A DNA stretch of 64,000 bases, taken from Corynebacterium hansenii. Its GTDB lineage: Bacteria > Actinomycetota > Actinomycetes > Mycobacteriales > Mycobacteriaceae. Shown piece by piece: positions 2,550 to 19,316 of the stretch. Made by a program: the position numbers and the translations under genes. The stretch lies in contig NZ_CP047211.1 in the NCBI RefSeq assembly GCF_030408795.1, positions 1,984,001 through 2,048,000 of the forward strand. The letters run 5' to 3'. The notes below the pieces were generated by a model, which saw only the letters and a program-made list of their open reading frames with translations, did not search any database and was not told where the DNA came from. Position 1 is the first letter of the stretch. Every line of letters begins with the position of its first letter.

Positions 2550-2562
2550 GCTGCTTTTCCTT

Positions 2563-3687: not shown

Positions 3688-3863
3688 TGGTCGGCCCCCT
3701 CGTGCAGGTCGCCGTCGGGGTCTCGGGGCTCCTCGCAGAGGCGGGGGCCGATTCCGCAGCAGCCGGGCTGGCACTGGGGGCGAGTGCTGAAGCGGGTGCG
3801 GCGGTAGGGGCCGGGGCAGTGGTTGCCGTCATCGTCGAAATCATCGGCGGGCGACCAGCTCAT
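3684..3863 (-). CDS. Small cysteine-containing phage protein, 59 aa
   Basis: MSWSPADDFDDDGNHCPGPY... The product has four cysteines (one near residue 16, then C, CC and another C in residues 33-45), which could bind a metal ion. The start overlaps the stop of the upstream gene and its stop overlaps the next start by 4 nt. Function unknown. Confidence 0.55.
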   Translation of the reverse strand: MSWSPADDFDDDGNHCPGPYRRTRFSTRPQCQPGCCGIGPRLCEEPRDPDGDLHEGADQ

Positions 3864-5217: not shown

Positions 5218-5236
5218 GGCGGGGTCCTCCTGGTGG

Positions 5237-5872
5237 TTAGGCGGATTTGTGGGTGAGGCGGGCGGAGATGTCGCCGAGGCGGTAGAGCAGTCGCCCGGCG
5301 CGGGTGGCGCCCTGCGGGGTGATGTGTCCGCGTTCGCGCCACTTGCGGATTTGGTCGGTGGTGCACCGGTAGCCGAGTCCGTCGAGGACGGTTTGGGCTT
5401 GGGCGGCGGTGACGAGCTGCTCGGCGGCGTCGGCGGTCATCGTTCGGCGGGTCGGCTCGGCGGCTGGGGTGTCGCTGGGTGGGTCGACGTAGGCGACGAT
5501 GCGGGCGGTGATGTGGTCGATTTCGTCGGCGGCGTCGGGGCCCCATTCGCGTTGGGCGACGTGGGAGACGACTTGTCCGAGGCGGGCGGCGAGGTGCCCG
5601 GGGTGGCGGGTGGGGCCGATGAACCACGCGGGGGGCAGGCCGAGGTCGCTGGCGAGGTTGGTCAGCCAGCCGTGGAGGATTTCCTCGGCTTCGGTCTGCA
5701 GGTCGAGGGGGTGGAGGTTCATTGGTGGGCGGGGGCCGGGGAGGTTGGGGGCGCGGCCGGCGTTGTCGGTGCCGCCTTGGCTGCGGGTTTTGGTGCCGTT
5801 GAGGCGGGGGGCGTAGCGGACGATGAGGGCGAGGTTCCTGCCGAGGCGTTCTGCCTGGGTGGCGTCAAGCAC
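5237..5872 (-). CDS. Phage helix-turn-helix protein, 211 aa
   Basis: Residues 1-135 are helical with no known domain. Residues 160-210 (QTVLDGLGYRCTTDQIRKWR, then RGHITPQGATRAGRLLYRLGDI) look like a MerR-type winged helix: a helix-turn-helix followed by a basic wing that ends in a LYRLGDI strand/helix. It is therefore probably a DNA-binding regulator. It lies just behind rusA and overlaps it by 8 nt. Confidence 0.6.
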   Translation of the reverse strand: MLDATQAERLGRNLALIVRYAPRLNGTKTRSQGGTDNAGRAPNLPGPRPPMNLHPLDLQTEAEEILHGWLTNLASDLGLPPAWFIGPTRHPGHLAARLGQVVSHVAQREWGPDAADEIDHITARIVAYVDPPSDTPAAEPTRRTMTADAAEQLVTAAQAQTVLDGLGYRCTTDQIRKWRERGHITPQGATRAGRLLYRLGDISARLTHKSA

Positions 5873-6260
5873 GCGGTGCTCCCTTCGTGGTGATGGTGAG
5901 GTAGAGGCGGGATTCTCGGGGTCCGGGGGCGTCGCGTTGCGGCGGGTCGATGGTGGGCATGTGCTTGGTCATCTGGTCGGGGGTGTCGTCGGCGGTGAGG
6001 CCGGCGTCGACGAGGCCGTCGCAGGCGGCTTTGAGGGTGGGGACGAGGTTGTCGGCGTCGCGGCGGCGTCGGTCGCGGGGGACGTAGTGCAGGGCGACGG
6101 TGGCGTGGTCAACGCCCTGGGGGAGCTTGGCGTTGCGGGCGAGGACGTTGGTGGCGTAGCGGATGTCGCGGACGGTGTCGGCTTTACGGCGCCAGTGCAT
6201 GCGCTGGTTGGCCGTGAGGGGCGGCAGGGCGTATGGGAGCCACAGGGTGTACTCGGTCAT
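5865..6260 (-). CDS. rusA: RusA-family Holliday junction resolvase
   Basis: RusA proteins are small dimeric endonucleases that cut four-way DNA junctions formed in phage recombination and replication. The product of 131 residues has the family features: an N-terminal PPLTANQRMHWRRKAD segment and the acidic metal site RRRDADNLVPTLKAACDGLV, followed by AGLTADDTPD. The length matches the family (about 120-140). The start at ATG 6260 overlaps the replication gene's stop. Its place in the exonuclease-RecT-SSB-replication string supports the call. Confidence 0.85.
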   Translation of the reverse strand: MTEYTLWLPYALPPLTANQRMHWRRKADTVRDIRYATNVLARNAKLPQGVDHATVALHYVPRDRRRRDADNLVPTLKAACDGLVDAGLTADDTPDQMTKHMPTIDPPQRDAPGPRESRLYLTITTKGAPRA

Positions 6261-7411
6261 GCCGTGCGCCTTTCTCGGGCGTCTGCGGCGGCTTTCCGCG
6301 CGATTTCGCGGGCCTCCTGCGCGGCGCGTTCCCTCTCCTCGCGTTCGGTGATCTGCTGCATGACGATCTCGGAGTTGCGGTCGGGGTCGTGGGTGCAGCG
6401 GGTGACGGGCTGGACGTCGAGGATCCACCCGCCGTCGTCGCACAGCTCGCATCCCTCGATCGCCGCGCGTTTGGCGGCGGCCTGCTGCCGGCGCTGTGCC
6501 GCCCTGCCCCACGACGCCCGCTCGGCCGACTTGCGTGCATCGGCGCACCCACCGCACGGCGGGGGATGCGGATCTCCGATGTGCGTCGCACACCTCGCGG
6601 CGCCGGGATCATCCAGCCACGCGTCGGGAATCTGAAAATTCTGGGGAGGGGAAAAACCCGGCTCCGCTCCCCCAGTAACGTTCCCGACCGCCTTTCCCCC
6701 CAAGGTTGAGTGTTGTGTGTTGAGGGTTGCTGTTGCTGTTGCTGTTGAAGGGCTTGGGTTAACCGATGGGTTACCGGAAGGGATGCCTTCACCCTTAACC
6801 GATGGGTAAACCGAAGGGTTACCGGAAGGGTCAACGGAACCCTTAACGGAACCCTTAACGGAAGGGTTCGGGGAAGGGTTAGCCGAAGGGTTAACCGAAG
6901 GGTTGCCGGAACCCTTAACCGATGGGTTCCAGCATGGGTAAACCGAAGGGTCAATCGAGTCCCCGGCCATCAACTCCGACAGCTCCTGCGACCCCCACCC
7001 CTTCATCCCCGGACGCTCCCGCTTGAGCCGATTCAGCTCATGCACGAGCACCCCACGGATCCCCGCCGACGCGACCTCCGCCGCGGCGCGTGCAGCGGCG
7101 GTGGCCATGTTCGGCATCTTGAGGAGATCGTCATTGCGGTGGAACGACCGCACCAGATACTCCTCGGTCTCCTGGTCGATGACGACGTACAGGTGATGGG
7201 CCAGCTCGGCGCCGGCGTTTTCCACCACCTCCACGTCATGACCCTGGGCGAGCGCGGCGAGACGGTTGGGCCGCCAGTCCCCCACACCGGCGCTGGTGAG
7301 CGTCGGGTGGGTCAGCAACAGGAAGTACAGCCACTGCGCCGCCGGGGTCAGCGCCCGAAATGCATCGTCGTTCCAGATGCTGAGTCGGATCTGGGCATAT
7401 TCACGAGCCAC
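6257..7411 (-). CDS. Phage replication initiator-like protein with internal iterons, 384 aa
   Basis: Residues 1-110 form a winged-helix-like DNA-binding region (MAREYAQIRLSIWNDDAFRA, then LTPAAQWLYFLLLTHP), typical of phage replisome-organiser and initiator proteins. The middle (about residues 152-219) is a repetitive NPSV/KGSV linker. It is encoded by 17 tandem 12-bp units (6756-6959). The C-terminal part has a CATHIG...CGGCADA...CELCDDGGW cluster, a probable zinc-binding domain, and an arginine-rich coiled tail. The gene sits between ssb and rusA. The layout, an initiator gene that contains its own origin repeats, is the one known for lambda O. The exact protein family is not certain. Confidence 0.7.
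   Translation of the reverse strand: MAREYAQIRLSIWNDDAFRALTPAAQWLYFLLLTHPTLTSAGVGDWRPNRLAALAQGHDVEVVENAGAELAHHLYVVIDQETEEYLVRSFHRNDDLLKMPNMATAAARAAAEVASAGIRGVLVHELNRLKRERPGMKGWGSQELSELMAGDSIDPSVYPCWNPSVKGSGNPSVNPSANPSPNPSVKGSVKGSVDPSGNPSVYPSVKGEGIPSGNPSVNPSPSTATATATLNTQHSTLGGKAVGNVTGGAEPGFSPPQNFQIPDAWLDDPGAARCATHIGDPHPPPCGGCADARKSAERASWGRAAQRRQQAAAKRAAIEGCELCDDGGWILDVQPVTRCTHDPDRNSEIVMQQITEREERERAAQEAREIARKAAADARERRTA
6756..6959. repeat. 17 tandem 12-bp iteron-like repeats, probable phage origin of replication
   Basis: Seventeen consecutive 12-bp units without gaps approximate GGGTTAACCGAA; variants include GGGTTACCGGAA, CCCTTAACGGAA and GGGTAAACCGAA. The GTTAAC core is self-complementary, and some units have the outer CCC/GGG swapped, so both orientations of the half-site occur. 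The tract is much richer in A/T than its surroundings and lies in the middle of the replication-protein gene. Iterons bind initiator proteins, so this is a candidate phage origin. Confidence 0.7.
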
Positions 7412-7429
7412 TGGCGGACTCCTTTCTCA

Positions 7430-7903
7430 CTAGTCGTTGGTCACCCACGGCGGCTGGTCGCCGCCGCTATTGGGCTTGGACGACGCCCACGGATCCGGGT
7501 TGGGCTGGCCGACGGCCGGGCGCCCGCCACCGCCGCGCGGGTTGCGGATCACCTGCGCCGTGGCGAACTTCAGCGACGGACCGACCTCGGCGTCCTTGAT
7601 CTCGTAGACGGTGCGCTGCTGCCCCTCGCGGGTTTCGTACGACCGCTGGTGCAGCGTGCCGGTGACGATGACGCGCATGCCCTTGGCCAGCGTTTCCATG
7701 ACGTTTTCCGCCTGTTCTTTCCAGACGTTGCAGGTCAGGAACACCGCGTCGCCGTCCTCCCACTGGTTGGCGTCGCGGTTGAACACCCGGGGCGTCGACG
7801 CCACGCGGAAGTTCGCCACCGCGGCACCCGACGGGGTGTAGCGCAGCTCCGGATCAGCGACGACGTTGCCGACCAGCGTGATCGGGGTGTCTCCCTGCGC
7901 CAT
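7430..7903 (-). CDS. ssb: Phage single-stranded DNA-binding protein
   Basis: The protein of 157 residues has the SSB OB fold: [40 protein letters not shown] and later [20 protein letters not shown] with [19 protein letters not shown]. It ends in the acidic/hydrophobic tip (DQPPWVTND) close to the usual DDDIPF-type partner-binding tail. It coats single-stranded DNA in phage replication and recombination. ATG 7903 overlaps the recT stop by one base (TAATG), so the two are co-translated. Confidence 0.93.
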
Positions 7904-8826
7904 TACTGCTGCACCTCCGCGGCGAGCTCGGAGGCCCGCTCGGTCCACGCCTCACGAAGCACCGCAAGCGCGGCCTCGTCGTCACCGAGCTTCGACACAT
8001 GCGCGCCGACCTTGGACTGCATCTCCTCCTCGGATCGCGACGCCACAAGCCCATCGAGGAGCTCACGGAGCATCGCGTTGCCGTCGATGACGGCCTGCGC
8101 GTCGACGGCCGGGGCTTCCTGCATCTCCGACACGTCGACGGGGGCCTGCTCGTCCTGGCGGGCGTGCATGCGGCTGCGAGCAGCCTCAATCGCCGACACC
8201 GCACCACCGCCGGCGGTCGGCCGGTCCGCGCGCGTCGCCTGCGCCTGGACGGGCTCCGACAGGCGGAGCTCCTCGACGCTGTAGGCGATGCCGGACAGGA
8301 TGTGCGACCCGAGGCGGCGGCACACCTCGGTGGCGGCCTTGGCGTAGAGCATCGCCGCGGGAATCTGCTTGTACAGGCTGTTCTTCGTGTACCCAGCCTG
8401 CTGGGCCATGTCGATGGTCCACCGGGCGGTGTACGTCTCGCCGGTCGGGGCGGTGCCGACGACGGTGACGGCGGTGTCGGTGTTTTCGGTGACGTCGAAG
8501 CGGTAGCCGTGGGCGCGGAGCAGGCCGACCATGGTGCGGGCCTCGACGCCGGGCTTGCCGTTGATGACCATGACCTGCTGCAGCGACTGGATCGCGTTGA
8601 GGCCGAGCTCGGCGCCGTAGAGGATGGCGGCCGCGCCGTCGTGGGGCTTGCCGCGGTACTGCTTGGGGACGAGCTCGGTGGAGCACATCGCCTCGGCGAC
8701 CTGCATCGCCGCGCCCATCGCTTCGGCCTGCTCCTTGAGGGAAGCCAGGGCCTGCGAGCTGGACGGGGCGGTCAGGGGCATGGCTTCGCCCTGGTGGGCG
8801 GTGTCGGGGAGGTTCTGGGTGGTCAT
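7903..8826 (-). CDS. recT: RecT-like single-strand annealing protein
   Basis: The 307-residue product has the RecT-like block of residues 55-110: [60 protein letters not shown]. It then has the [20 protein letters not shown] segment typical of RecT-family annealing proteins. The C-terminal 100 residues are variable and acidic. RecT-type proteins pair complementary single strands made by a partner exonuclease, here probably the YqaJ-like protein at 9831-10781. The gene is followed directly by ssb. Confidence 0.8.
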
Positions 8827-8835
8827 GGTGGTCTC

Positions 8836-8982
8836 CTAGATGTAGGTGGTGATGAGGATTGCCAGTGCGGCGATGACGCCGACGGCGACGACGATGAGGT
8901 ACGGCCACAGGCCCGGATCGTCGTCAAACGGGGCGCCATGCAGGCGCTTGTAGTCGCGGGGGAACCGCGGGTCTTCGGTCAC
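8836..8982 (-). CDS. Small single-helix phage membrane protein, 48 aa
   Basis: The start is GTG 8982, preceded by AAGGAG and overlapping the stop of the next upstream gene (GTGA). The polar N-terminus (residues 1-27, VTEDPRFPRDYKRLHGAPFD...) is followed by one hydrophobic helix (WPYLIVVAVGVIAALAILIT) up to the C-terminus. Function unknown; it may anchor a protein complex in the membrane. Confidence 0.6.
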   Translation of the reverse strand: MTEDPRFPRDYKRLHGAPFDDDPGLWPYLIVVAVGVIAALAILITTYI

Positions 8983-9197
8983 AGGTGCTCCTTGATGACG
9001 TCGCGCACCCACGTCGGAATGCGCTTGTCCTGGTACTGGGTGCGGCCGTGGGCGACGGCTTCGGCGATGCCCAGGTGCTCGACCTGGCTGGCATCGTCCA
9101 GCTGCTCCCACCGCCGGGGCGCGTAAAAGCTATTGCGGCGCTGCTGGCGCTTCTCGTACGCCTGGTGCAGGGCAACCGCGGCTTTGATGACGGTCAC
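8979..9197 (-). CDS. Unknown phage protein, 72 aa
   Basis: GTG 9197 follows AGGAG. The product (VTVIKAAVALHQAYEKRQQR...) is a basic helical protein of the size of small DNA-binding or regulatory phage proteins, with no recognised domain. It is translationally coupled to the small membrane protein behind it. Confidence 0.6.
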   Translation of the reverse strand: MTVIKAAVALHQAYEKRQQRRNSFYAPRRWEQLDDASQVEHLGIAEAVAHGRTQYQDKRIPTWVRDVIKEHL

Positions 9198-9205
9198 GGG
9201 GGCTC

Positions 9206-9604
9206 CTAGCTGGTGATCGGGGTGCGGGTCAGCAACGTCGCGGCGACCTCCGGCGGCAGCACTGCGAAGCGGTCGCGGTTGCTGGTGGTGATCAGCACGT
9301 CCCCCGGCCTGGCGCGGTGGTACGACCCGTCCTGCAGCGCAATCCGCACCTCGCGGATCGCCCCGCCCTGCTTGCGGATGATCTGCCAGTCCGCGCGGTG
9401 CGGGAGCACCGCATGAAGCACGGCGTCGACCTGGTCGTCGCTGAACGCGGCCGCCGCCAGCGGAAACACCGTCGCCGCGTACACAGCCAGCTGCGGCTCC
9501 ACCCGCACGAACGTGCCCGGCAGCGGATTACCCAGCCTGCGCAGCGCATCACCGCGCGACCGGGCGCGGAGGGCGTGGTGTCCCTCGCGGATCTTCCGGC
9601 CCAT
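9206..9604 (-). CDS. Unknown phage protein, 132 aa
   Basis: MGRKIREGHHALRARSRGDA... has a basic N-terminus, a helical middle (FSDDQVDAVLHAVLPHRADW) and a beta-rich C-terminal half with RPGDVLITTSNRDRFAVLPP. It overlaps the preceding stop by 3-4 nt (ATGA). No family is recognised. Confidence 0.65.
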   Translation of the reverse strand: MGRKIREGHHALRARSRGDALRRLGNPLPGTFVRVEPQLAVYAATVFPLAAAAFSDDQVDAVLHAVLPHRADWQIIRKQGGAIREVRIALQDGSYHRARPGDVLITTSNRDRFAVLPPEVAATLLTRTPITS

Positions 9605-9834
9605 CAGACGTCACCTCCCGTGCGGCCCGCCGGCAGCGGCATACCGCACTTGGTGTGCGCCGCTTCCAGGGACTGCACGAGCTGACGTCCCTTCTCGGTC
9701 AGGCGGACGGGGCCGGACATCTGCACCCACCCGCCACGGCGCAGGGAGCCGAGCAGCGACGGGTGCACCTCCGGGGTGTCGGTGGCGGTGTAGATGCGCC
9801 ACACGCCGTCGAGGATCTGCGGATTCGTCGTCAC
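9604..9834 (-). CDS. Winged-helix-like phage protein, 76 aa
   Basis: The start is GTG 9834 (VTTNPQILDGVWRIYTATDT). The middle (EVHPSLLGSLRRGGWVQMSG, then PVRLTEKGRQLVQSL) has the pattern of a winged helix: a recognition helix and a wing ending in LTEKGR. It may be a small DNA-binding regulator. It overlaps the exonuclease gene's stop. Confidence 0.6.
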   Translation of the reverse strand: MTTNPQILDGVWRIYTATDTPEVHPSLLGSLRRGGWVQMSGPVRLTEKGRQLVQSLEAAHTKCGMPLPAGRTGGDV

Positions 9835-10781
9835 GCCGCCACCTCCTTCGGCAGCGGCACGTGCCGCAGCTGCACGCCTCGTTTCGTAGCGACGCGCTTG
9901 GCGAGGACATGCCCATCGGGGTCGATGGCGACAGCCGCGCGGCCCATCTCCTCCAGCAGCCGCGCTCCGGCGATCTCCGCGTCCTTGTCGGCCGCGCGTT
10001 TGGCGGCGGCCGCGTCCTTCGACGCGGTTTTCGCCCGATCCCACGCGGCGGCGAGATCCGCGTCGACGGACACCGGGTCGGCGTCGTCGTCAATGTCGGG
10101 GTGGCGGAGCTTCGCGATGCGGTAGTCATTCGGCGCCGTCGGCGTCGGCGGGTGCCCGTCGAGCGTCGCGATGAACGCGTGGACGCTGGCGACGAGGTCC
10201 GCGGCGAACTCGGCCACGTACGGCACCTCGAACTCGCGCCACTCGTAGTACGGCCCGGCGACGACGATCACGGCGGGGTGCTCGACCAGGCCGGAGCACA
10301 GCATTTCCCAGGTCTCCTGGATCAGCCAGTCCACCGGCAGCGTCTCCTCGGTGAGGTTCTGGAATTCCTCCCAGTCCCGCACCGTCTTGAACTGCACACA
10401 CCTGGAAAAACGCGGCCCGCGGGAGCGGTTGACCATGGTGGCCACCCGGTCCAGCGTCGCCGCGTTGTCGAACCCGAGGTGAGGATTCTGCACCTGCACC
10501 TCCCCACGCGACAGACGCCACCCCGGATTGCGCTCGGCCCACCAGTACGCCAGGGCGTGCTCCATCGCGTGGCCGGTGAGGAACCGATCCTCCATCGAGG
10601 AGTCCTCGACGCGGATGCCGTTGAGCATGTTCCACACGCTGTAGGGCGTCTCGTAGGCGGATTCCCCGGCGATGCCGGCGACCTTCGACGCGGTGATGAT
10701 TCGCGCCCACTCGGCGGTGCCGGGCTTGGCGGGCTGGCGGACGACGCACAGGGACGTCGGGGTCGGGGTGGCGGTCATCAT
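9831..10781 (-). CDS. YqaJ-like phage exonuclease (partner of RecT)
   Basis: The protein of 316 residues has the YqaJ/lambda-exonuclease fold signatures: KVAGIAGESAYETPYSVWNM, then the acidic GHAMEHALAYWWAERNPGWR, FDNAATLDRVA and the catalytic-lysine strand RCVQFKTVRDW. These enzymes digest one strand of double-stranded DNA ends so that RecT can anneal the other. The two tandem ATG codons (10781, 10778) both fit behind a G-rich ribosome site; the longer is used. The region after residue 220 is lysine/alanine-rich. Confidence 0.82.
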   Translation of the reverse strand: MMTATPTPTSLCVVRQPAKPGTAEWARIITASKVAGIAGESAYETPYSVWNMLNGIRVEDSSMEDRFLTGHAMEHALAYWWAERNPGWRLSRGEVQVQNPHLGFDNAATLDRVATMVNRSRGPRFSRCVQFKTVRDWEEFQNLTEETLPVDWLIQETWEMLCSGLVEHPAVIVVAGPYYEWREFEVPYVAEFAADLVASVHAFIATLDGHPPTPTAPNDYRIAKLRHPDIDDDADPVSVDADLAAAWDRAKTASKDAAAAKRAADKDAEIAGARLLEEMGRAAVAIDPDGHVLAKRVATKRGVQLRHVPLPKEVAA

Positions 10782-10993
10782 CCCCACCCCGCATCCAGGG
10801 CGGCGGCGAGGTGCTGGTCTGCTTGGTGGCCGATCCACAGGGTGAGCGCCAGCGCGGCGGCGGCGAGCGTGGCCCACGTGGCGGCGGTGGCCCACCGTCG
10901 GGGCGGGCGTGCGTTGATAGGCGTGCGCACGGTGACGGGCACGCCGACGGCGAGCATCAAGTCCAACTCGTCGGAATAGTTCGTGTAGGTCAT
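10778..10993 (-). CDS. Small single-helix phage membrane protein, 71 aa
   Basis: A polar 33-residue N-terminus (MTYTNYSDELDLMLAVGVPV...) is followed by one hydrophobic segment (about residues 35-53, ATAATWATLAAAALALTLWI) and a short tail. It overlaps the exonuclease start (ATGATGA). Function unknown. Confidence 0.65.
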   Translation of the reverse strand: MTYTNYSDELDLMLAVGVPVTVRTPINARPPRRWATAATWATLAAAALALTLWIGHQADQHLAAALDAGWG

Positions 10994-11178
10994 GCTGCGT
11001 CCTTCAAGTTGTCAAACCACTGGTCAAGGTCAGCTTTTCGGGCGCGCCACCCCATGCCCGCGACCTTGCGGGCCGGGAGCGGGTTCGTCGGGCGGGTCGC
11101 CAAGCGCGTCAGCTGCGGCCCGCTGAGCCGCAGGTACTCGCGGATCTCCGGGCCGGTCATGATCTCCGGGGCGCTCAT
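10990..11178 (-). CDS. Small helix-turn-helix protein, excisionase-like, 62 aa
   Basis: MSAPEIMTGPEIREYLRLSG... then PQLTRLATRPTNPLPARKVA and GMGWRARKADLDQWFDN: the pattern of an excisionase/MerR-like helix-turn-helix, in which the last part is the DNA-contacting wing (W-R-K-x-DLDxW). It may control excision together with the integrase at 17086-18267 or regulate early genes. It is in the early operon, not beside the integrase. Confidence 0.7.
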   Translation of the reverse strand: MSAPEIMTGPEIREYLRLSGPQLTRLATRPTNPLPARKVAGMGWRARKADLDQWFDNLKDAA

Positions 11179-11402
11179 CGGCGGCCGTCCTCCCGGTCGA
11201 GGTGGCGCATCGCCCGGTGAAAGGCGTCGCGGGCCTCGTCGGAATCGAGGCCGGAGAAGCTGTAATCCGCCTTGGCGGTCTTCTTGGGGGCGATGCGGCG
11301 GATCTCGACGCGCACACGCGTCATCGTCCGCAGCTCCCACAGGATCGCGACGAGCAGCAGCAGCGCCGCCACGTCGAACAAGATGGTGATGAAGGTCGTC
11401 AT
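11175..11402 (-). CDS. Small phage membrane protein, 75 aa
   Basis: The start is ATG 11402 (MTTFITILFDVAALLLLVAI), giving one N-terminal membrane helix and a basic then acidic cytoplasmic part (RVEIRRIAPKKTAKADYSFS...). Overlaps both neighbours. Function unknown. Confidence 0.6.
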   Translation of the reverse strand: MTTFITILFDVAALLLLVAILWELRTMTRVRVEIRRIAPKKTAKADYSFSGLDSDEARDAFHRAMRHLDREDGRR

Positions 11403-11611
11403 GATTCGAATTCCTCTCCGGGATTCAGGCCGGCGGTGCCGACGACGTAGGCGATGGTGATCGCGCGGGCGGAGTACCCCTCGCGGCGGCACTTGTCGGC
11501 CAGGGACGAGCGGGTCAGGTCACGGCCGGGCATGTACTCGGCGGCCTGCAGGTCCGTCAGCTCGGCTAGGCGGCCGAGGGTGTTGAGCTTCTGGGCGGTG
11601 GCGTGGGTCAT
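11399..11611 (-). CDS. Unknown phage protein, 70 aa
   Basis: MTHATAQKLNTLGRLAELTD... is small, helical and soluble; the segment LTRSSLADKCRREGYSARAI could be a helix-turn-helix but is too weak to call. Overlaps the antirepressor stop by 4 nt. Confidence 0.6.
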   Translation of the reverse strand: MTHATAQKLNTLGRLAELTDLQAAEYMPGRDLTRSSLADKCRREGYSARAITIAYVVGTAGLNPGEEFES

Positions 11612-12378
11612 GCGGCCACGTCCTCGGCGGCCCAGCGGCGCATCGCCCGCTCGATCGCCACCGCACCGGCCGGGGTGATCTTCAGCGTCTGCCGCACTTC
11701 ACCGGCCAGCCGCGGCGCGTCGTGCGCCGGGATCAGGCGGAAGTAGCGCTTCTTGTCGGCGACGGCGCGCCACTGGTACTCGGTGACCAGGCCGTTCTTT
11801 TTGTTCGACCAGCGCTGGTAGTCGCGGCGGTAGATCCAGCCGCGGGCCATCAGCACCTGCCGGAGGTGCTTCTCCCCCACCTCCAGCTGGTTCGCCAGGG
11901 TGCGGAATTGGATCAGGTCCTCGTCGGCGACGAACTCGTCGTGGTAAGCGACCTTCGGGGCGTCCTCGGCGACCTTCGCTTCGAGCTCCTGGACCTTGCG
12001 GTACGTCAGCTGCAGCGCCCGGTGGACGATTTCATCGTCCGACAGCGGTGCCGAGTAGGAGCCGGTCTTGCGGATCTGGGGGAGGACCTCTCGGGTGACC
12101 CAGCGCTTGAAGTCCTTTGCTTCCGGGCGGCGGGAGCGGAGGATCGCGGAGTACAGGCCGGATTCGGCGATGGTGATCATCTGCTGCTCGCCGCCGGGGG
12201 TCTGCCAATTCGACAGACCCTTTTCGTCGGCGTCGAGGTGGCGGGTCATCGCGGACGCTTCGGAGAATCCGAGGACCTTGGCGACGTCGGCGGCGACCCA
12301 TCGGGGCTCGCCGTCGTCGCCCTGGATGACGCGGACCTCGTGCCCTCGGAAGTCGAAGGGCTGGATGGTAGATTTCAT
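11608..12378 (-). CDS. Phage antirepressor with BRO-N and KilAC domains
   Basis: The protein of 256 residues has an N-terminal BRO domain (FDFRGHEVRVIQGDDGEPRW, VAADVAKVLGFSEASAMTRH, then MITIAESGLYSAILRSRRPE and KRWVTREVLPQIRKTGSY). Its C-terminal KilAC domain (FRTLANQLEVGEKHLRQVLM, then RGWIYRRDYQ) is separated by a charged coiled region. Such antirepressors counteract prophage repressors or regulate early genes. The start ATG 12378 follows AAAGGAAA; a longer frame would add 20 residues without support. Confidence 0.88.
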   Translation of the reverse strand: MKSTIQPFDFRGHEVRVIQGDDGEPRWVAADVAKVLGFSEASAMTRHLDADEKGLSNWQTPGGEQQMITIAESGLYSAILRSRRPEAKDFKRWVTREVLPQIRKTGSYSAPLSDDEIVHRALQLTYRKVQELEAKVAEDAPKVAYHDEFVADEDLIQFRTLANQLEVGEKHLRQVLMARGWIYRRDYQRWSNKKNGLVTEYQWRAVADKKRYFRLIPAHDAPRLAGEVRQTLKITPAGAVAIERAMRRWAAEDVAA

Positions 12379-12462
12379 GGTGGTTTCCTTTGGTAGGGAC
12401 TGAAAACGCCCGCCCCGGCTGCAACCCGGGGCGGGCACTCACATAGATGGGTTGGTGGGTTC

Positions 12463-13128
12463 GTGGCTGATCCCGTGACGGTGGCTGGGGCGGTTTTCGC
12501 GGGCATTGCCGCAATGGGCGCACCTTTTTCCGTGTATCTCGCCAAGCGGCAGGTGTCTCTCGCGCAGCAGCAGTTGGAGCAAGCCGGCGGAATCCAGATC
12601 ACGGTGAAAAGGTCGCGGTCGTCGGTGTCCGTTAATGGCTCTGAGCCGGCAGAGAGATTTGAGTGCACGGTCATCCTTGGCGGGCCCGGGACTCGGCACT
12701 CCACCGATTTGTCGATCTCCGTCGGGGATCGGTTTCGGGTATTGGATGGCCCCGTAGATCTCTTTCACGCATCATCGCCGCCGCTCAGTGGCGTATTCCG
12801 ACTCACACACGATGAAGCGGAGAAGGCTTACATCCACGTGAACTGGGTGTCCCACTACAACGGTGGCGTACTCCCCCAGGCGATCCGTTGTCGACTCCTG
12901 GAGGAACGGCACACGGAGTACTGGAAGTGGAATCGGAGGCGACTCTGGCGCCGGCGCGTCGCTATGGCGCGAGGGTGGGAGAAGGTCTTCCGGCCTAAGG
13001 ATCTTGGGAAATGGTGTAAGACACCAAACCGCCCTTATTTGGATCGTGAATTGCCAGGGTGGCCGCTAGGTAGACCAGACCGCACACTAGGTGTACACCC
13101 AGAGCCACCAGGCCAATTGCCCATATGA
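12463..13128 (+). CDS. Unknown protein on the opposite strand of the early operon, possible moron, 221 aa
   Basis: The start GTG 12463 (VADPVTVAGAVFAGIAAMGA) gives an N-terminal hydrophobic helix, then a beta-rich domain (about residues 45-150) and an arginine/tryptophan-rich C-terminus. It is the only rightward gene inside the leftward early operon, and its base composition is lower in GC than its neighbours. Both are typical of morons, extra genes expressed from the prophage. No family is recognised. Its last 130 bases overlap a small minus-strand gene, so the exact end of function is uncertain. Confidence 0.55.
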   Translation: MADPVTVAGAVFAGIAAMGAPFSVYLAKRQVSLAQQQLEQAGGIQITVKRSRSSVSVNGSEPAERFECTVILGGPGTRHSTDLSISVGDRFRVLDGPVDLFHASSPPLSGVFRLTHDEAEKAYIHVNWVSHYNGGVLPQAIRCRLLEERHTEYWKWNRRRLWRRRVAMARGWEKVFRPKDLGKWCKTPNRPYLDRELPGWPLGRPDRTLGVHPEPPGQLPI

Positions 13129-13135
13129 TGGCCAT
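12995..13135 (-). CDS. Small hydrophobic phage protein, 46 aa
   Basis: ATG 13135 has a strong AAGGAGA ribosome site about 8 nt upstream. The product is almost entirely one hydrophobic hairpin (MAIIWAIGLVALGVHLVCGL, then VYLAATLAIHDPNKGG). It overlaps the 3' end of the rightward gene 12463-13128; one of the two may not be used. Confidence 0.45.
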   Translation of the reverse strand: MAIIWAIGLVALGVHLVCGLVYLAATLAIHDPNKGGLVSYTISQDP

Positions 13136-13202
13136 CTGCTGTTCTCCTTCTCGTCGTTGGGTGTGCGCAGCTCGCCGGCCCGGGGCCAGCCGCAGGGCCG
13201 TC

Positions 13203-13240
13203 ATCGACTGCGAATCAACTCATCGACTGCGAATCAACTC
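13203..13240. repeat. Tandem duplication of a 19-bp unit at a gene end
   Basis: Two exact copies of ATCGACTGCGAATCAACTC lie head to tail. The left end of the gene at 13220-13633 falls within them, so its last codons and TGA are repeated just behind its stop. This looks like a recent replication-slip duplication. Confidence 0.9.
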
Positions 13241-13633
13241 ATCGGCGTTCACCAGACCGGCGCGGGACAGCACCGCTATCGCATCAAGCACCTCACTGGC
13301 GGCAGACTTGCTGATCCGCTCCTCCCCATCGGCAGGCCACTGGATCGGCGCTGACCGCTGGATGATCGCCTTGTACCCGGCGGCTTCCAGAATGTCCCGA
13401 CGGATAGCCGCCGACGACCGCGACCTCCACGCCTTGTCGAGGTTGGGTTCAATCCACTTGGACGTGCCGAACTGCTTGATGTAGTCGTCGTGCGGTTCCC
13501 ACCCGACGGGGCACATCTCCTCGGTGTAGTACCGCTCCCCTGCACGTGGCCCGTATTTGTACGTGTTGAAGCAAATCCGCTTTTCCCACTCGGGCTGAGC
13601 GGTGATCTGCACTCGGTAGTAGTAGTCAGTCAT
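13220..13633 (-). CDS. Unknown phage protein, 137 aa
   Basis: MTDYYYRVQITAQPEWEKRI... The first 80 residues are rich in aromatic and charged residues (FNTYKYGPRAGERYYTEEMC); the last 50 are a helical segment (ADGEERISKSAASEVLDAIA). No known domain. It overlaps the DinD-like gene stop (ATGA), so it is expressed with that gene. Confidence 0.7.
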   Translation of the reverse strand: MTDYYYRVQITAQPEWEKRICFNTYKYGPRAGERYYTEEMCPVGWEPHDDYIKQFGTSKWIEPNLDKAWRSRSSAAIRRDILEAAGYKAIIQRSAPIQWPADGEERISKSAASEVLDAIAVLSRAGLVNADELIRSR

Positions 13634-14514
13634 GCTCCAAGCTCCTTCATCTCTTCGTTGCTGATCAGCACCAATCCAGTGCTGTGCTGGTTGACGGGCA
13701 GTCCCTCTGCGGCGAGGCGGTCGCGAAACTCCAGCTCCATCTGCGGACGGATTCGAGGGTTGAACCGGCGCTTGCCGCCGTGAACCCCCTTGTCGTGGTT
13801 GTAGATGTAGGGGCGGCCCTTCGCCTTTGGTTTGCCGTGGTCGGGGCCAGGGCGGGCCTTTCCTTCGTGGTTGACGCGCGCGCCGCGCTGGTCGATCTGC
13901 CAGCCGTGCCGGTACAGGTGTTCCTGAAATTGCTTTGCGGGCACGTCGGAGAAATACTTCTTGCCGAAGTCCGTCGGGGTGATGCCGTCGCTGCCTTCGA
14001 TGCCACGCTTGAAAGCGTTGAGTGCGTCGGCTCGTCGCTCTGCTTTGGCGGCGCGGGCGCCTTCGAGTTCCGCCCGCTCGGCTTGTTCGGCTGCGGCGCG
14101 TAGCGCTCCGGCGTAGGTTGCGGGGATTTCGAAGCGCTGGGGCGCTGTTTCTGCTTCGCGGGTGCGGATCGCGAAGTATGCCTGGGCGGCGGCGATCTCC
14201 CGCTTACGCGGGTCGCCATTCATCGCGACGAGATAGCACGCGAAGCGAGACAGGTGCACATCCTCGCGCATTTGATTCGTCGCGCCGGAAGGTTCCCGGA
14301 GCCGGGAAGCTTCCTCGTCTGCGCGGTGCCCTTGTGCGACGAGAGAAGCGGTAGCGCGTTCGATGGCGCCGTTGAACCGCTCCCACTTGTCATAGCCCAA
14401 CAGGGGCATGAGGTCGCGGGCCGACCAGAACTCCGAACCGTCGGGCCGGGTACGCTTGATGGTGTCAAAGGGGGATGCGTCCCCGTTGACTGGCTCCAGG
14501 TGATTGCTGGTCAT
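13630..14514 (-). CDS. DinD-like / phage antirepressor protein, 294 aa
   Basis: The N-terminal domain (SPFDTIKRTRPDGSEFWSAR, DLMPLLGYDKWERFNGAIER, then EDVHLSRFACYLVAMNGDPR and AQAYFAIRTREAE) matches DNA-damage-inducible protein D. The C-terminal half (GITPTDFGKKYFSDVPAKQF...) resembles KilAC-type antirepressor tails. Proteins of this kind link host damage responses to prophage induction. It is the second antirepressor-like gene of the operon and lies directly behind the Cro-like gene. Confidence 0.8.
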   Translation of the reverse strand: MTSNHLEPVNGDASPFDTIKRTRPDGSEFWSARDLMPLLGYDKWERFNGAIERATASLVAQGHRADEEASRLREPSGATNQMREDVHLSRFACYLVAMNGDPRKREIAAAQAYFAIRTREAETAPQRFEIPATYAGALRAAAEQAERAELEGARAAKAERRADALNAFKRGIEGSDGITPTDFGKKYFSDVPAKQFQEHLYRHGWQIDQRGARVNHEGKARPGPDHGKPKAKGRPYIYNHDKGVHGGKRRFNPRIRPQMELEFRDRLAAEGLPVNQHSTGLVLISNEEMKELGA

Positions 14515-14529
14515 CTGGGGCCTCCTTTC

Positions 14530-14760
14530 TTATGCGGCGATTTTGTCGTGGGTGATGGTGAGTCCGTGCCAGATGCCGGGGGTGTCCATCAGGGTGGAGA
14601 CGTGCAGCGCCATTGGTGCGCCGACGGTGGCTCCGTGGCGGAGCTTGCCGAGTTGGTCGGTGGTGATGCCCAGGGCGGTGGCGAGCGCTTGCTCGCTGGT
14701 GAGTCGTTTTTCCTGGGCGATGATGTCCAGCGCTCCGGGCTGGAATCGGTAGGCAACCAT
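14530..14760 (-). CDS. Cro-like helix-turn-helix regulator, 76 aa
   Basis: ATG 14760 follows AAAGGAGG. The 76 residues contain a helix-turn-helix (EKRLTSEQALATALGITTDQ, then LGKLRHGATVGAPMALHVST). It is the first gene of the leftward operon and faces the repressor gene (15252) across a 490-bp control region, the usual position of Cro. It would repress the repressor or early promoters in lytic growth. Confidence 0.75.
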   Translation of the reverse strand: MVAYRFQPGALDIIAQEKRLTSEQALATALGITTDQLGKLRHGATVGAPMALHVSTLMDTPGIWHGLTITHDKIAA

Positions 14761-14866
14761 GTGCCCTCCTTTCGTCGGTGGGTAGGGGCGGGGGCCAGGT
14801 GCCACGGGGTGTGGCTGGTGTCCTGGTTGTAAAGGGAGGACTCCTGATCTGGTGGTCCCCCGCCCC

Positions 14867-14969
14867 TGGTGCCCGCGTGCGGATTCGAACCGCGCCCCAC
14901 TCCCGCGTGGGGCCCATGCGCGGGCTTGGATTTGTACTGCGCTGGCCTCTACCACGGCAGGGCGCGACC
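14867..14969 (-). ncRNA. tRNA-like element, probably a degenerate or minimal tRNA
   Basis: The 3' part (14867-14925) is exact: acceptor-like GCCCGCG/CGCGGGC, T arm GCGG-TTCGAAT-CCGC, discriminator A and CCA. Between the 5' acceptor strand and the T arm there is only one hairpin (GCCCCAC-GCGGGA-GTGGGGC) and no normal anticodon loop. Reading further out, GGTCGCG at 14969 can also pair with the same 3' strand (one mismatch, one wobble). That gives a 103-nt form with a D-like arm (GTGGTAG), a 7-bp arm with a 17-nt loop and the GCCCCAC hairpin as a long variable arm. Neither form has a standard anticodon arm. Confidence 0.5.
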
Positions 14970-15214
14970 CCTGCCGGTTCCGTCGTCCGCCGCGTACGCC
15001 CTTCTTCCAATCAGGGCGCCCATAGCGACGGCAAGTGCATGACCAGCGCGTTCCACTAATTCAGTTCTGCAAACATCTCCTGCAACCGCTTCCCCGGCTA
15101 GGCCGTCTCCGTGGTGCTGGAATACAGTTTGCGCCCATCGGATACGCATCGCAAGCCTGTGATTCCAGGCCACCCCCTCGCGCCACCCCCGCTAGCCCGA
15201 TTGCGCTGCGTCTA

Positions 15215-15244
15215 TTGCGGTTGAATACATTCATCAAGTACCGT
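15215..15244 (+). promoter_or_regulatory. Repressor promoter with operator-like palindrome
   Basis: TTGCGG (-35, 15215-15220) and TACCGT (-10, 15239-15244) are 18 nt apart. The start ATG 15252 lies 7 nt behind the -10 box, which predicts a leaderless mRNA. The spacer carries the inverted repeat TGAAT-AC-ATTCA (15222-15233), a candidate operator for self-regulation. Confidence 0.5.
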
Positions 15245-15251
15245 TCGTGGC

Positions 15252-15722
15252 ATGGACTTCCACGCATGGATTCAAGAACTCATCGGCGACGACACCCGCC
15301 GCGAAGCATCAGCAAAAGCGGGCAAATCGGAGAGCACCCTTTCCAGGCAGCTCAGCCGCGACACCCTCTCCCCCGAGATGGTCATTGCCCTGTGCCGCGC
15401 CTACGACCGACTTCCCGCCCAGGGGCTCATCGAGACCGGGTACCTCCGCCCCTGGGAGGTCGAAGGAGCGGGCATCCCCCACGCCCTTGATAAGGCGACG
15501 AATCAGCAGTTGCTCGACGCGATCCTCCGCCGCTCCGACCCGGAAGCGACGTACCTCTTCGGCATGGGAGATGACCAGATCAACCCCGACGCGGCCGTCC
15601 TCGACCTGCCGCAACGCCCTGACGACACCCCCGCGATCCGGGCGGTGTCCGACGATGACCTCCCGTACGTGGCTGACAGCAGCCCGGACAACCCCGAGGA
15701 GGACATCGAGTTTGACGATTGA
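15252..15722 (+). CDS. Prophage repressor (CI-like), 156 aa
   Basis: The N-terminus (MDFHAWIQELIGDDTRREAS, AKAGKSESTLSRQLSRDTLS, PEMVIALCRAYDRLPAQGLI) is a helix-turn-helix of the kind seen in corynebacterial and mycobacterial phage repressors. The rest is an acidic tail without the LexA/CI self-cleavage domain. The next gene encodes an ImmA-like protease, which in ICEBs1-type systems cleaves the repressor, so that cleavage may be provided in trans here. The gene faces a cro-like gene, as expected for an immunity repressor. Confidence 0.8.
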   Translation: MDFHAWIQELIGDDTRREASAKAGKSESTLSRQLSRDTLSPEMVIALCRAYDRLPAQGLIETGYLRPWEVEGAGIPHALDKATNQQLLDAILRRSDPEATYLFGMGDDQINPDAAVLDLPQRPDDTPAIRAVSDDDLPYVADSSPDNPEEDIEFDD

Positions 15723-16098
15723 TGACCTACACGACCTAGCAGCCGCCATCGGTGCCCGCGTCGAATCGCACGCCGCGGGCCCGAAAGGCCGGTACATCCA
15801 CCAGACCCGCACGATCAGCATCCGCTGCGACCTCGGCCCCACCCGCTACCGATGCACCCTGGCGCATGAACTCGCCCACGCGATGGCCGGCGACGAGCCC
15901 ACGGGCATCGGCTGGGCGGACGCCCGGATGGAGCGGGCGGCGGATATCACCGCGGCGCGGTGGCTGATCTCCCCCGACGCCTACGCCGCGGCGGAAGCGC
16001 TCTACGGCCCCCACCCTGGGGCACTCGCCCGCGAGCTCGGCGTCACCCTCCACACCCTCCAGGTGTGGCAATCCCTCCACGAAAGGACCCCAGCATGA
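15712..16098 (+). CDS. ImmA/IrrE-family metallopeptidase, 128 aa
   Basis: The product has the zinc-protease motif HELAH (TLAHELAHAMAGDEPTGIGW, followed by MERAADITAARWLISPDAY), typical of ImmA/IrrE proteins that cut phage or ICE repressors after DNA damage. The start is probably TTG 15712, which follows GAGGAGG by 9 nt and overlaps the repressor's last codons; no ATG or GTG fits. It is translationally coupled to the repressor, which supports a repressor-inactivating role. Confidence 0.85.
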   Translation: MTIDDLHDLAAAIGARVESHAAGPKGRYIHQTRTISIRCDLGPTRYRCTLAHELAHAMAGDEPTGIGWADARMERAADITAARWLISPDAYAAAEALYGPHPGALARELGVTLHTLQVWQSLHERTPA

Positions 16099-16991
16099 AA
16101 ATCACCGGCCCCGGCACCTTCTCCCAGGACCTCGACGGCGAATCATGGGCATTCGATGAAATCCGCCAGCTAGCCGAAGAGGGCGGACACGCCCCCGGCA
16201 CGTCGTTCACCACCACCGTCCGCCTCACCGAATTCGTTGGCACCGTCGAAGCAGAGCATGACCTCGGGAAGTTCGGTGAAATACCCGCAGCCGAAGTTGC
16301 GCCATGGATCGAAGCCATGTCCTACATCGAAGAAATCTTCGGAGAAACCATCGAGGTCGACGCCCGCGTGTGGACCTGCCGGGACTGGGAAGACTTCTAT
16401 GCCTCCGTTCGACTCGATCTGCCTTCGCCCAACGAGGTGATTGCCCAGGCGCGGGCGAAGGCGGGCATCGATCCGGACATCGAGAAATCGCTCGCCCTAG
16501 ATCGGGCGGAGGCTATCGCGCAGCTCGATGCGATCGAGGCCCGGCGGGATGCCGCCCCGGAGCCCGCACCGAATCCGTACGGCGCGCCCCCTTCCGCACT
16601 GCCGCCCGCGCCAATGGCCCCGCCATGGTTCGAGCTGCTGGCACCGGACGGCACGCCAAGGGCGACGCCGTTTCAGCGCGGCTACGTTCGCGGGTCGATC
16701 GGCAAGCACTTCCCTGCCGCCCGCGCGCCGCGCATGGATTACCTCACCGTCGGCCAGGCACACCGCGTGTGCGAGCACTTCGGCGTCGATCCGGCGCCGC
16801 TGACGCAAAGCGGCCGCGGCTCGATGGCGCTGTTCATCACGGTCCTGGTGCTGTTCAACGTCGCCGCGCTGCTGCTGACCTTCGCCGGCATCGGCGTGGT
16901 CTTCCTCGTCGCCGAGGCAGCGTTCTTCATTTGGTACTTCAACGTCCGTGGGAAGCTGCAGCCGCCGTTCGGAAAGCAGCCCGGGCAGTAA
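16095..16991 (+). CDS. Unknown membrane protein in the immunity operon, 298 aa
   Basis: ATG 16095 overlaps the protease stop (ATGA). Residues 1-150 are soluble and acidic, residues 150-185 are proline/alanine-rich, and residues 190-240 (WFELLAPDGTPRATPFQRGY...) look like a small folded domain. Residues 245-285 contain two membrane helices (MALFITVLVLFNVAALLLTF, then GIGVVFLVAEAAFFIWYFNV). It is expressed with the repressor in the lysogen, so a role in superinfection exclusion or host modification is plausible, but no family is recognised. Confidence 0.75.
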   Translation: MKITGPGTFSQDLDGESWAFDEIRQLAEEGGHAPGTSFTTTVRLTEFVGTVEAEHDLGKFGEIPAAEVAPWIEAMSYIEEIFGETIEVDARVWTCRDWEDFYASVRLDLPSPNEVIAQARAKAGIDPDIEKSLALDRAEAIAQLDAIEARRDAAPEPAPNPYGAPPSALPPAPMAPPWFELLAPDGTPRATPFQRGYVRGSIGKHFPAARAPRMDYLTVGQAHRVCEHFGVDPAPLTQSGRGSMALFITVLVLFNVAALLLTFAGIGVVFLVAEAAFFIWYFNVRGKLQPPFGKQPGQ

Positions 16992-16998
16992 AAGAAAA

Positions 16999-17044
16999 TC
17001 CGGCCCTGCCGCACGCCTTGGACAGCATGAGCGGCAGGGCCGGA
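16999..17044 (+). terminator. Perfect 14-bp inverted repeat between immunity operon and integrase
   Basis: TCCGGCCCTGCCGC and its exact complement are separated by 18 nt. There is no T-run, so it may be a Rho-assisted terminator or a binding site that separates the immunity operon from int. Confidence 0.5.
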
Positions 17045-17085
17045 GGCAACCGCCCCCTTCGTAGGGGCAGCAAGGAGAGCTTACC

Positions 17086-18267
17086 GTGAGTGCAGCGAAT
17101 CCCCGCAAGATCATTCTCAAGTCCGGCGAGGCCCGGTGGGAGGCCCGGTACCGGGACACCGCCGGCAGGCACCGATCACGAACCTTCCACTACAAGCGGG
17201 ACGCGGTGGCGTTCCTCGAGGAGACGCGGCGGGAGCTTCGGCGTGGCGAGTGGATCGACCCCGCAGACGGGACGATCACGCTCCTGGAGCTGGCGGAGGA
17301 CTGGATCGATCGGTCTGACGTGCCCAACACGATTGCGGGGAGGATCACGTTCAGCCGCAACTTGGGCGACTTCGGGGGCATCGAGGTCGGCAAGCTCACG
17401 CCGCGGCACATGCGGCAGTGGGAGAAGCAGCTGCGCACCGGCAGGCCATGGAAGGGCGGTAAGCCCCTGTCGGACGGCACGGTCGGCGGGTACGTCCGCG
17501 AGATGAAGGCGATGCTCACCGCGGCGGTGGTCGATGAGCGGATCCGGAAAAGCCCTGCCGATGTGCTGAAGTCGAGGAAGGTGATCCGCAAGGTCGCGCC
17601 GGATGAGGTGCTCACCGCCGACATGGCCAACGCCATGATCGACGTTTTCGAGTCCGGGCGGCGGCGGATGACGAAGGCGGAGCGCGAGGCTGCCGGGCGC
17701 GGGGAGTTGGCCCCGTGGACGTCGATGCGCGCGGTGCCGGAGATGGGGTACCTGGTGCGGGCAGGGGCGGCAATCGGCCCGCGGCCGTCGGAGCTGCTGG
17801 ATATCCGCCTGGAGGATATCGACGTCGCGCGGGGGACGGTGTACCTGAGGGGCACGAAGTCGGATGCGGCGCCGAGGACGATCGGTGTGCCGGCGGAGGT
17901 GATCCGGGAGATGCGGAAGCGGGCGGCGGAGTACCCGACGAAGGAGGGCTTCGTGATGATGCGCTCGGATGGGCGGCGGATGACGCTGCAATGGATCGAG
18001 CAGCGGTTCCGGGCGGCGCGAGAGGCGCTGGGGCTGCCGGATTCGATCACGCCGCATTCGCTGCGGCACCTGCATGCGACGTCGCTGATTGCCGCCGGGG
18101 TGGATGTGAAGGCGGTGCAGCATCGGCTGGGGCATAGCAGCGCGATGGTGACGTTGGACATTTACGCTCACTGGTGGCCGTCGCGGGAGGGGCATGTGGT
18201 GGAGGCGGCGGCGAATGTTCTTGCGGGATTTGTGCGGGATTTGCCGGGTTTGCGGGTCGTCCAGTAG
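17086..18267 (+). CDS. int: Phage tyrosine integrase
   Basis: The protein of 393 residues has an N-terminal arm-type DNA-binding region (residues 1-60), a SAM-like core-binding domain (about 60-180) and the tyrosine-recombinase catalytic domain. The catalytic residues are visible: R in AAIGPRPSELLDIRLEDI, HSLRHLHATSLIAAG, HRLGHSSAMV and the nucleophile Y in LDIYAHWWP. GTG 17086 follows AAGGAGAG. It lies at the end of the prophage next to the attachment junction and catalyses site-specific integration and excision. Confidence 0.95.
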   Translation: MSAANPRKIILKSGEARWEARYRDTAGRHRSRTFHYKRDAVAFLEETRRELRRGEWIDPADGTITLLELAEDWIDRSDVPNTIAGRITFSRNLGDFGGIEVGKLTPRHMRQWEKQLRTGRPWKGGKPLSDGTVGGYVREMKAMLTAAVVDERIRKSPADVLKSRKVIRKVAPDEVLTADMANAMIDVFESGRRRMTKAEREAAGRGELAPWTSMRAVPEMGYLVRAGAAIGPRPSELLDIRLEDIDVARGTVYLRGTKSDAAPRTIGVPAEVIREMRKRAAEYPTKEGFVMMRSDGRRMTLQWIEQRFRAAREALGLPDSITPHSLRHLHATSLIAAGVDVKAVQHRLGHSSAMVTLDIYAHWWPSREGHVVEAAANVLAGFVRDLPGLRVVQ

Positions 18268-18334
18268 TGGCAGTGGTGCTGGTCAGGGCGGTTTTTGTGC
18301 TCTAGTTGAAGAACTTGTACCAGGGGTTATTCAC
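18268..18334. mobile_element. Right prophage junction (attR) region
   Basis: The integrase stop (18267) is followed within 60 bp by host sequence belonging to the glk operon. The minus-strand reading frame that begins at GTG 18334 ends at TAG 18304-18302, so the phage-host crossover is probably within about 18300-18330. The left junction is outside the window, so the core sequence cannot be defined here. Confidence 0.55.
18302..18334 (-). pseudogene. plsC: First ten codons of the gene after glk (probably plsC), cut off by the prophage
   Basis: GTG 18334 overlaps the glk stop (GTGAATAA) and reads V-NNPWYKFFN before a TAG. An N-terminus with a WYKFF-type motif, directly behind glk and coupled to it, is what I expect of the 1-acylglycerol-3-phosphate acyltransferase gene that follows glk in C. 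glutamicum. The remainder would lie at the left prophage end. This is inference from synteny and ten residues. Confidence 0.45.
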
Positions 18335-19316
18335 GGTCGCTAACCTTACCCTCAGCTTCGGCGCGCGCGAGGTCGGCCGCGCCGATCATGCCGGCGTCCG
18401 CCCCCAGCCGGGCGACTTCGATGCGCGCGGTCGGGCGGTGGCCGGCTCCGGTGATCTCGGTGGCGAAGACGGCGCGGGCGCGTTCCAGGTACTGGTCGGC
18501 CGCCTGCGCGACGCCGCCGCCGATGACGATGAGCTCCGGGTCGAAGACGTCGGCCACCAGCGCCAGGGCCCGTCCGAGCCAATCGGCGAAGTCCCCCACC
18601 GCGGCGACGGCCAGCGGGTCGCCGCCCTGCGCGGCGAGCATGACGTCGGAGCCGGTGGCGGTGCCGTCGATGCACGCCTGCGCCAGCGGTCCGCCGAACC
18701 GGCCGGTGGTGGCCAGCTCGCGCGCGGTGGCGGCCAGGGCCGTGCCGGAGCAGTAGCGCTCCAGGCACCCGCGCTTGCCGCAGGAGCACGGGCGACCGCC
18801 CGGCACCACGGTGAGGTGGCCGAATTCCGGGGCGGTGCCGTGGGCTCCGCGGTAGATGCGGCCGCCGCTCATCATCGCGCCGCCGATGCCGGTGCCCAGG
18901 GCGAACAGCACCCAGTCGTCGGCCCCGCGGGCGGCGCCGAAGCGGTATTCGCCCCAGGCGGCGGAGTTGGCGTCGTGTTCCAGGGTCACCGGCAGCGGCA
19001 GCCGCTCCCCCAGCCGCGCGGCGACGTCGGCGTCGCGCCAGGGCAGGTGCGGCGCGAAACGCACGACGCGGCGGGCGGAATCCAGGAACCCGGCCACGGC
19101 CAGGCCCACGGCCACCGCATCGGGGTGGTCGCGGAGCAGTTCTCCCGTCATGGCGACGATGCCGTCCTCGAGGTCCTCCGCCGTGCCGTCCGACGACCGC
19201 CGCATGCGGTCGATGACGTGCCCCTCCGCCGACACCACGGCGGCCCGGAGGTTGGTGCCGCCGATGTCGAAGCTGATGGTCGGCCCCGCTGTCGCGGTTT
19301 CGGGGGGCATCGTCAC
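18327..19316 (-). CDS. glk: ROK-family sugar kinase, probable glucokinase
   Basis: ROK kinases phosphorylate glucose or related sugars with ATP. The protein (about 329 residues) has the ATP-binding FDIGGTNLRAAVVS motif, EHDANSAAWGEYRFGAA, the ALGTGIGGAMMSGG motif, and the ROK zinc site (EFGHLTVVPGGRPCSCGKRG with CLERYCSG). GTG 19316 follows GAGGAG with 6 nt spacing, and ATG 19310 is also possible; longer frames run into proline/arginine-rich shadow sequence. The position next to the SRPBCC and pimB' genes matches glk of C. glutamicum. The prophage is inserted just behind it. Confidence 0.88.
   Translation of the reverse strand: MTMPPETATAGPTISFDIGGTNLRAAVVSAEGHVIDRMRRSSDGTAEDLEDGIVAMTGELLRDHPDAVAVGLAVAGFLDSARRVVRFAPHLPWRDADVAARLGERLPLPVTLEHDANSAAWGEYRFGAARGADDWVLFALGTGIGGAMMSGGRIYRGAHGTAPEFGHLTVVPGGRPCSCGKRGCLERYCSGTALAATARELATTGRFGGPLAQACIDGTATGSDVMLAAQGGDPLAVAAVGDFADWLGRALALVADVFDPELIVIGGGVAQAADQYLERARAVFATEITGAGHRPTARIEVARLGADAGMIGAADLARAEAEGKVSDRE

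Follow-up and report, generated by a model that had tools for sequence, protein, structure and literature searches.

What happens to a host gene when a phage enters at its first codons is the question raised by a locus of Corynebacterium hansenii, where a glucokinase-like gene (glk) is followed by the very beginning of plsC and then by phage DNA. The genome under study (G000) is a single contig of 3,098,017 bases, of which positions 1984001-2048000 constitute the window, i.e., the whole stretch of 64,000 nucleotides that was analyzed. On the minus strand, window positions 18334..18302 read GTG AAT AAC ... TTC AAC TAG, a truncated plsC frame of ten codons followed by TAG on the glk side of the prophage. 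A 20-mer from this frame matches the window once when up to three mismatches are allowed and was contained in none of 100 shuffles, while a 15-base part of it has a second copy in the genome at G000:C1:1957848, 44.5 kb to the left of the window copy. The repeated att core is exactly 29 bp long and identical at both prophage ends, the left copy being located at G000:C1:1957848-1957876 and the right copy (attR) at window positions 18306..18334 (minus strand). On the plsC strand it reads GTGAATAACCCCTGGTACAAGTTCTTCAA, extending from the G of the GTG start codon to codon 9 plus two nucleotides (...TTCAA).

The two core copies flank a Corynebacterium prophage of 44.5 kb, which displays similarity to C. 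xerosis phages; its right part occupies window positions 1..18305, and the remaining 26 kb on the left (G000:C1:1957877-1984000) fall outside the window. A tyrosine integrase gene (17086..18267, plus strand; Phage_integrase, PF00589, 3e-23) is situated beside one prophage end, and the right phage arm spans 18268..18305 between the integrase stop and the core. In the related genome G164 the core is present as a single copy with glk adjoining plsC, and G113 agrees with such an unoccupied single-core site up to its contig end. The sequence-only reading of this DNA, which had placed a prophage beside glk and had noted a frame GTG AAT AAC ... AAC TAG overlapping the glk stop, is borne out in these points by the 29-bp core at both ends, by the integrase and by the position of the glk TAA, which ends at 18327. 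Its statement that the insertion lies ten codons into the gene holds in that the crossover region falls within the first ten codons, but plsC is uncut and its start codon lies inside the shared core. As judged by eye, the core may consist of two imperfect inverted half-sites of 9 bp each, separated by 11 bp, and CTGGTAC is common to the core versions seen. Within the right arm, CTGGTCAGGGCG (18278-18289), which resembles CCAGTTCAGGGCG of the left arm, is, likewise by eye, a possible arm-type integrase site.

The prophage carries further genes, one of which is positioned near the attachment site at its left end and encodes a RelA/SpoT domain (L003:8442-9332, plus strand; PF04607, 32.3 bits). 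This gene also matches the PADLOC candidate family PDC-S33 (8.7e-12), is followed by a small open frame (9247-9552), and may be a gene of the alarmone type that the prophage carries for defence or exclusion. A tRNA-Leu (CAA) gene lies inside the prophage at window positions 1081-1157 (minus strand), and an RtcB-like RNA ligase is among the features under the match of the prophage to phage Bran.

At the left junction (L003:7119-7877, minus strand) the plsC frame continues to 252 codons, and the resulting 252-residue protein contains an Acyltransferase domain (PF01553, 102 bits against a cut-off of 23). Truncation of plsC was thus ruled out, a complete gene being present at this junction. The product falls short of the TIGR00530 cut-off (88.2 versus 102.95 bits), and the name plsC is therefore right at family level: by these profiles the protein can be called an acyltransferase with assurance, its substrate not. 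Since the core and the start codon have their first base in common, integration rebuilds the full plsC frame and exchanges only the DNA upstream of it. As read from the sequence, plsC is unbroken and its start is not new, and what is exchanged is the 5' control region; an intact coding sequence is found separated from its native upstream DNA. The interrupted gene had been predicted to be a plsC-like acyltransferase adjacent to glk, with a core copy and the remainder of plsC beyond the left end of the prophage, and both were found there, in agreement with the phage-free relatives G164 and G225, where glk runs straight into plsC. The predicted dependence of plsC transcription in the lysogen on the phage side holds, in that the DNA upstream of the left-junction GTG, where transcription must begin, is phage DNA; the phage-supplied new start codon that was also envisaged has to be given up, as host and phage share the GTG as part of the core. 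The sequence-only reading further called plsC essential, a view tempered by the presence of two other PF01553 proteins in the G000 genome, and regulation of membrane lipid synthesis by integration, also suggested there, is at most a possible effect. No second gene of G000 matches the plsC product at E <= 1e-40. A plsC match at this threshold was obtained in 240 of 242 genomes of the genus, the two exceptions being G113, whose contig ends within the gene, and G119, which is 53% complete.

The neighboring glk gene (18327..19316, minus strand) encodes a glucokinase-like protein of the ROK family (PF00480, 2.2e-71; 233.4 bits against ROK_glcA_fam, below its cut-off of 260.35), and its stop codon TAA is located inside the core. 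Within the 3' end of glk, 8 nt before the GTG, lies the -10-like box TAAGGT (18343..18348, minus strand), which has counterparts at the same place in relatives, i.e., TAAGGT in G225 and TAAAGT in G164 and G113. G164 and G225 have no prophage at plsC, and their plsC GTG overlaps the glk stop, G113 being alike up to its contig end. The box at 18343..18348 is probably the native plsC promoter, now separated from plsC by the prophage: in the lysogen it stays on the glk side, and the plsC GTG is preceded by phage DNA (...CCTGTACACTCAGTCGG).

The phage arm that takes its place in G000 presents TACACT (L003:7885-7890, minus strand), followed by 7 nt and the GTG. A second genome of the same species, G175, was discarded as a phage-free reference on account of its own integrase beside the core; it holds a second prophage at the plsC site, with an integrase 69% identical to that of G000, a core with differences on its phage side and an arm composed of TATATT, 7 nt and GTG. 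The same layout is found in the free phage Juicebox (MH727550; host C. xerosis according to the record), whose integrase is 68% identical to that of the G000 prophage and whose attP is intact, with arm and core joined and the -10 box again at a distance of 7 nt. Juicebox differs from the G000 prophage in being a free phage record, in its attP core (GTGAATAATCGCTGGTACGAATTGTTCAA) and in the extent of likeness, as a near-identity search with window positions 1-18500 matched it in the integrase region only (17245-18188). When the G000 arm was used as the query of a distant DNA search, Juicebox was recovered only weakly (E 4). The Juicebox and G175 arms agree at 64 of their last 65 bases. Given these matching arms in a second prophage and in the attP of a free phage, the arm belongs to the phages. 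The arm motif, with up to three mismatches, occurs in 3 of the 242 genomes and at plsC every time, which rules out that the arm is general host DNA. In Juicebox, attP is located in a gap without annotated genes between the convergent int and gene 25, and the arm box points antisense into int.

A search of IMG/VR for other viral contigs sharing this attP yielded no match to the full-length core pattern; of the six contigs retrieved with a core pattern, five had no arm, nor a related integrase in the stretch examined of each, and the sixth is a copy of Juicebox. Phage Bran, whose genome resembles the G000 prophage, has a different integrase (33%). Near this integrase (L169:2620-2960), Bran contains an 88-bp stretch that is 98% identical to DNA of G000 (G000:C1:931989-932076) and G175 and that, by eye, encodes the end of an acyl-CoA dehydrogenase. 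Furthermore, G210:C1:908451-948193 seems to be a Bran-type prophage, in which two copies of the 88-bp stretch are separated by approximately 39 kb, one of them adjoining an integrase match. Based on these findings, related phages may differ in site choice, using either a 3'-end site or the 5' plsC site.

The genome just mentioned, G210, represents another species and has no prophage between glk and plsC, its two integrase matches being located elsewhere and 34-35% identical. The end of its glk-plsC spacer is identical to the Juicebox arm at 50 of 50 bases and to the G175 arm at 49 of 50, and a scan of the 120 nt preceding its plsC GTG yielded no in-frame start. Its glk and plsC are 85% and 88% identical, respectively, to their G000 counterparts. 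This spacer is most likely the scar of a lost prophage whose promoter-like arm was kept. It is rather unlikely that, for G210 only, the spacer is instead a native promoter that was captured by the phages. The identical last 50 bp of G210 and Juicebox would fit transfer in either direction, and the position of G210 is not settled by the plsC protein tree and has a support of only 74 in the joint nucleotide tree. Against capture, the likeness among phage arms continues past the G210 breakpoint: in the alignment of G000 with G175, which begins 24 columns farther from the core than that with G210, 64 of 92 arm columns are alike, and the agreement of Juicebox with G175 likewise runs to the 65 bases given above. 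In addition, glk of G210 ends in an unrelated tail, whereas G000, G175, G164, G113 and G225 share the overlapping glk end, and the glk protein tree groups G210 with G000 and G175 (87/90).

The start regions of plsC were surveyed across the genus. From the 242 genomes 91 plsC loci were entered, of which 13 were dropped (12 without an N-terminal match, and L115, which was misplaced), so that 78 starts were scored. A near group (n=16) comprised the 15 best-scoring loci by plsC protein match together with G113. All 16 loci of this group have TANNNT at 6-8 nt from an in-frame start, and none has any of the nine Shine-Dalgarno words sought, evidence that is strong but does not amount to a formal test, since these loci are not independent of one another and had been inspected before the group was defined. 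Thirteen of the loci are native, the other three being phage arms or the G210 spacer, and one locus (L025) counts only by way of a GTG 12 nt further up. Among the other 62 loci, six have the box and 29 a Shine-Dalgarno word. The background frequency of the box in the near group, at positions 31-300 nt upstream, is 0.7%; around the prophage, such a box was found at 0.19% of 196,064 positions (0.06% with at least four of six consensus bases) and before 0.27% of 3,356 GTG positions (0.15% with at least four of six). In C. glutamicum, TAnnnT precedes about 97% of mapped transcription start sites at a distance of 3-11 nt, and leaderless transcripts make up 33% of the mRNAs, about 21% of them beginning with GUG (PMC3890552). 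The presence of a -10 box at 6-8 nt, together with the absence of a Shine-Dalgarno word, fits leaderless transcription of plsC in this clade.

The near-group loci (L020-L034 and L102, with the box in 16 of 16 and putatively leaderless GTG or ATG starts) can be set against L035-L049 and L106-L165 (Shine-Dalgarno word in 29 of 62), and a possible interpretation of this apparent change from Shine-Dalgarno to leaderless starts is an evolutionary loss of the plsC leader in this clade.

The explanation that we favor, with a probability of about 0.78, is that the attP arm acts as a plug-in leaderless promoter by which plsC stays expressed in lysogens. According to this explanation, a temperate phage akin to the C. 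xerosis phages integrates, by means of its tyrosine integrase, into the first nine plsC codons. The plsC mRNA of the clade would be leaderless and begin at the GTG, and the -10 element of the phage arm, 7 nt before this GTG, would constitute a substitute leaderless promoter. Lysogens would continue PlsC production at a level set by the phage, their own control of the gene being lost. Antisense transcription would moreover cross the core and reach the 3' end of int, driven by the separated host promoter or, in the free phage, by that of the arm. The odds are about even for a broader claim, i.e., that there is a phage family whose att arm serves as a plug-in leaderless promoter, with a core that runs from the +1 position and start codon of an important host gene, so that each integration would swap the promoter and leave the protein unchanged, with the promoter antisense to int in the free phage, and with at least one species having lost the phage and kept the promoter.

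The promoter motif and its spacing are present in the arms of G000, G175 and Juicebox. A consensus promoter scan of Juicebox (L105, 4100-4700, 601 bases) returned a single promoter, TGGTCA-16-TATATT, which is the arm box, with 0.1 expected; the G000 box, which matches TATAAT at four of six positions and has a poor -35, is not listed by the scan. It is quite unlikely that the box is incidental, the arm being conserved for integrase binding, with plsC in lysogens either off or transcribed by read-through from the phage and other acyltransferases compensating. Attachment arms normally contain integrase sites, and CGCCCTGAACTGG, near the -35 position, looks like an arm-type integrase site; it is present in both phage arms, with a similar motif in the right arm, and part of the arm likeness may thus reflect integrase binding rather than transcription. 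The two further PF01553 proteins could supply compensation. However, the last 30 bp of the G000 and G175 arms differ at 11 of 30 positions, yet the box stays 7 nt from the GTG in both kinds of arm, and the background rate around the prophage is 0.06-0.27%. With respect to read-through, a very stable hairpin followed by four U separates the upstream phage genes from the arm (-47.1 kcal/mol in G000 and -45.6 kcal/mol in Juicebox); terminator scans of the two regions list neither hairpin, and insulation from the phage genes is for that reason not sure. The retention of plsC in 240 of 242 genomes at E <= 1e-40 also argues against a lysogen in which the gene is off.

It is very improbable that the prophage acts as a switch of the SpyCI/mutL type, by which plsC would be silenced or altered with the prophage in place and restored on its excision. 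The position of the insertion is in line with a switch, since it separates the co-directional glk and plsC at the 5' end of the latter, as SpyCI lies between mutS and mutL, but a promoter-like element of the arm adjoins the start codon, and the sequence bears no sign of regulated excision. Translation of PlsC in the lysogen from a phage ATG 75 nt upstream of the GTG, with 25 extra residues, is hardly credible; an open frame of 277 codons from this ATG in G000 speaks for it, but the GGAGG is only two bases away from the ATG, and scans of 120 nt upstream of the GTG found no in-frame start in the second prophage (G175) or in G210.

Replacement of promoters by integrated elements is known, and the plug-in promoter proposed here would work like that of coliphage HK022, which replaces the torS promoter (PMC6814406). 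In both cases a host gene is cut from its own promoter and driven, or predicted to be driven, from a promoter at the phage end beside the junction; HK022 differs in that it inserts between torS and torT and that transcription was measured, whereas at plsC the core lies at the start codon and the leaderless model is drawn from sequence. The dusA elements, such as IMEVchUSA3, and ICE SXT at prfC, according to PMC8409611 (SXT as cited there), integrate at the 5' end of a gene and bring a promoter together with a new N-terminus; the plsC prophage shares the 5'-end integration and, by prediction, the new promoter, but its core keeps the N-terminus, only upstream DNA being changed. SpyCI elements of Streptococcus pyogenes inactivate mutL, although one strain regains its expression from a promoter within the element (PMC3430984). 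As at plsC, a phage-like element severs the downstream gene from its operon; in the SpyCI case mutL is inactivated, strain SF370 shows growth-dependent excision and the promoter that effects the rescue is part of a decayed integrase gene, whereas the promoter-like arm at plsC is part of attP in an isolated phage, Juicebox. Relative to HK022/torS, SXT/prfC and the dusA elements, what appears new is a core that begins on the start codon. Among the matches listed in a search of open-licence PMC texts, no paper on the plsC insertion site was found.

A phage that inserts into a gene commonly restores the 3' end and so leaves the gene intact. The plsC site suggests how insertion at a 5' end could likewise leave the protein unharmed: in leaderless genes promoter and start codon nearly touch, and a -10 box in the arm, 7 nt from the core, may therefore suffice. 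The empty site, two different prophages, a free phage and a probable scar together form a natural series in which promoter exchange, and its later domestication, could be measured.
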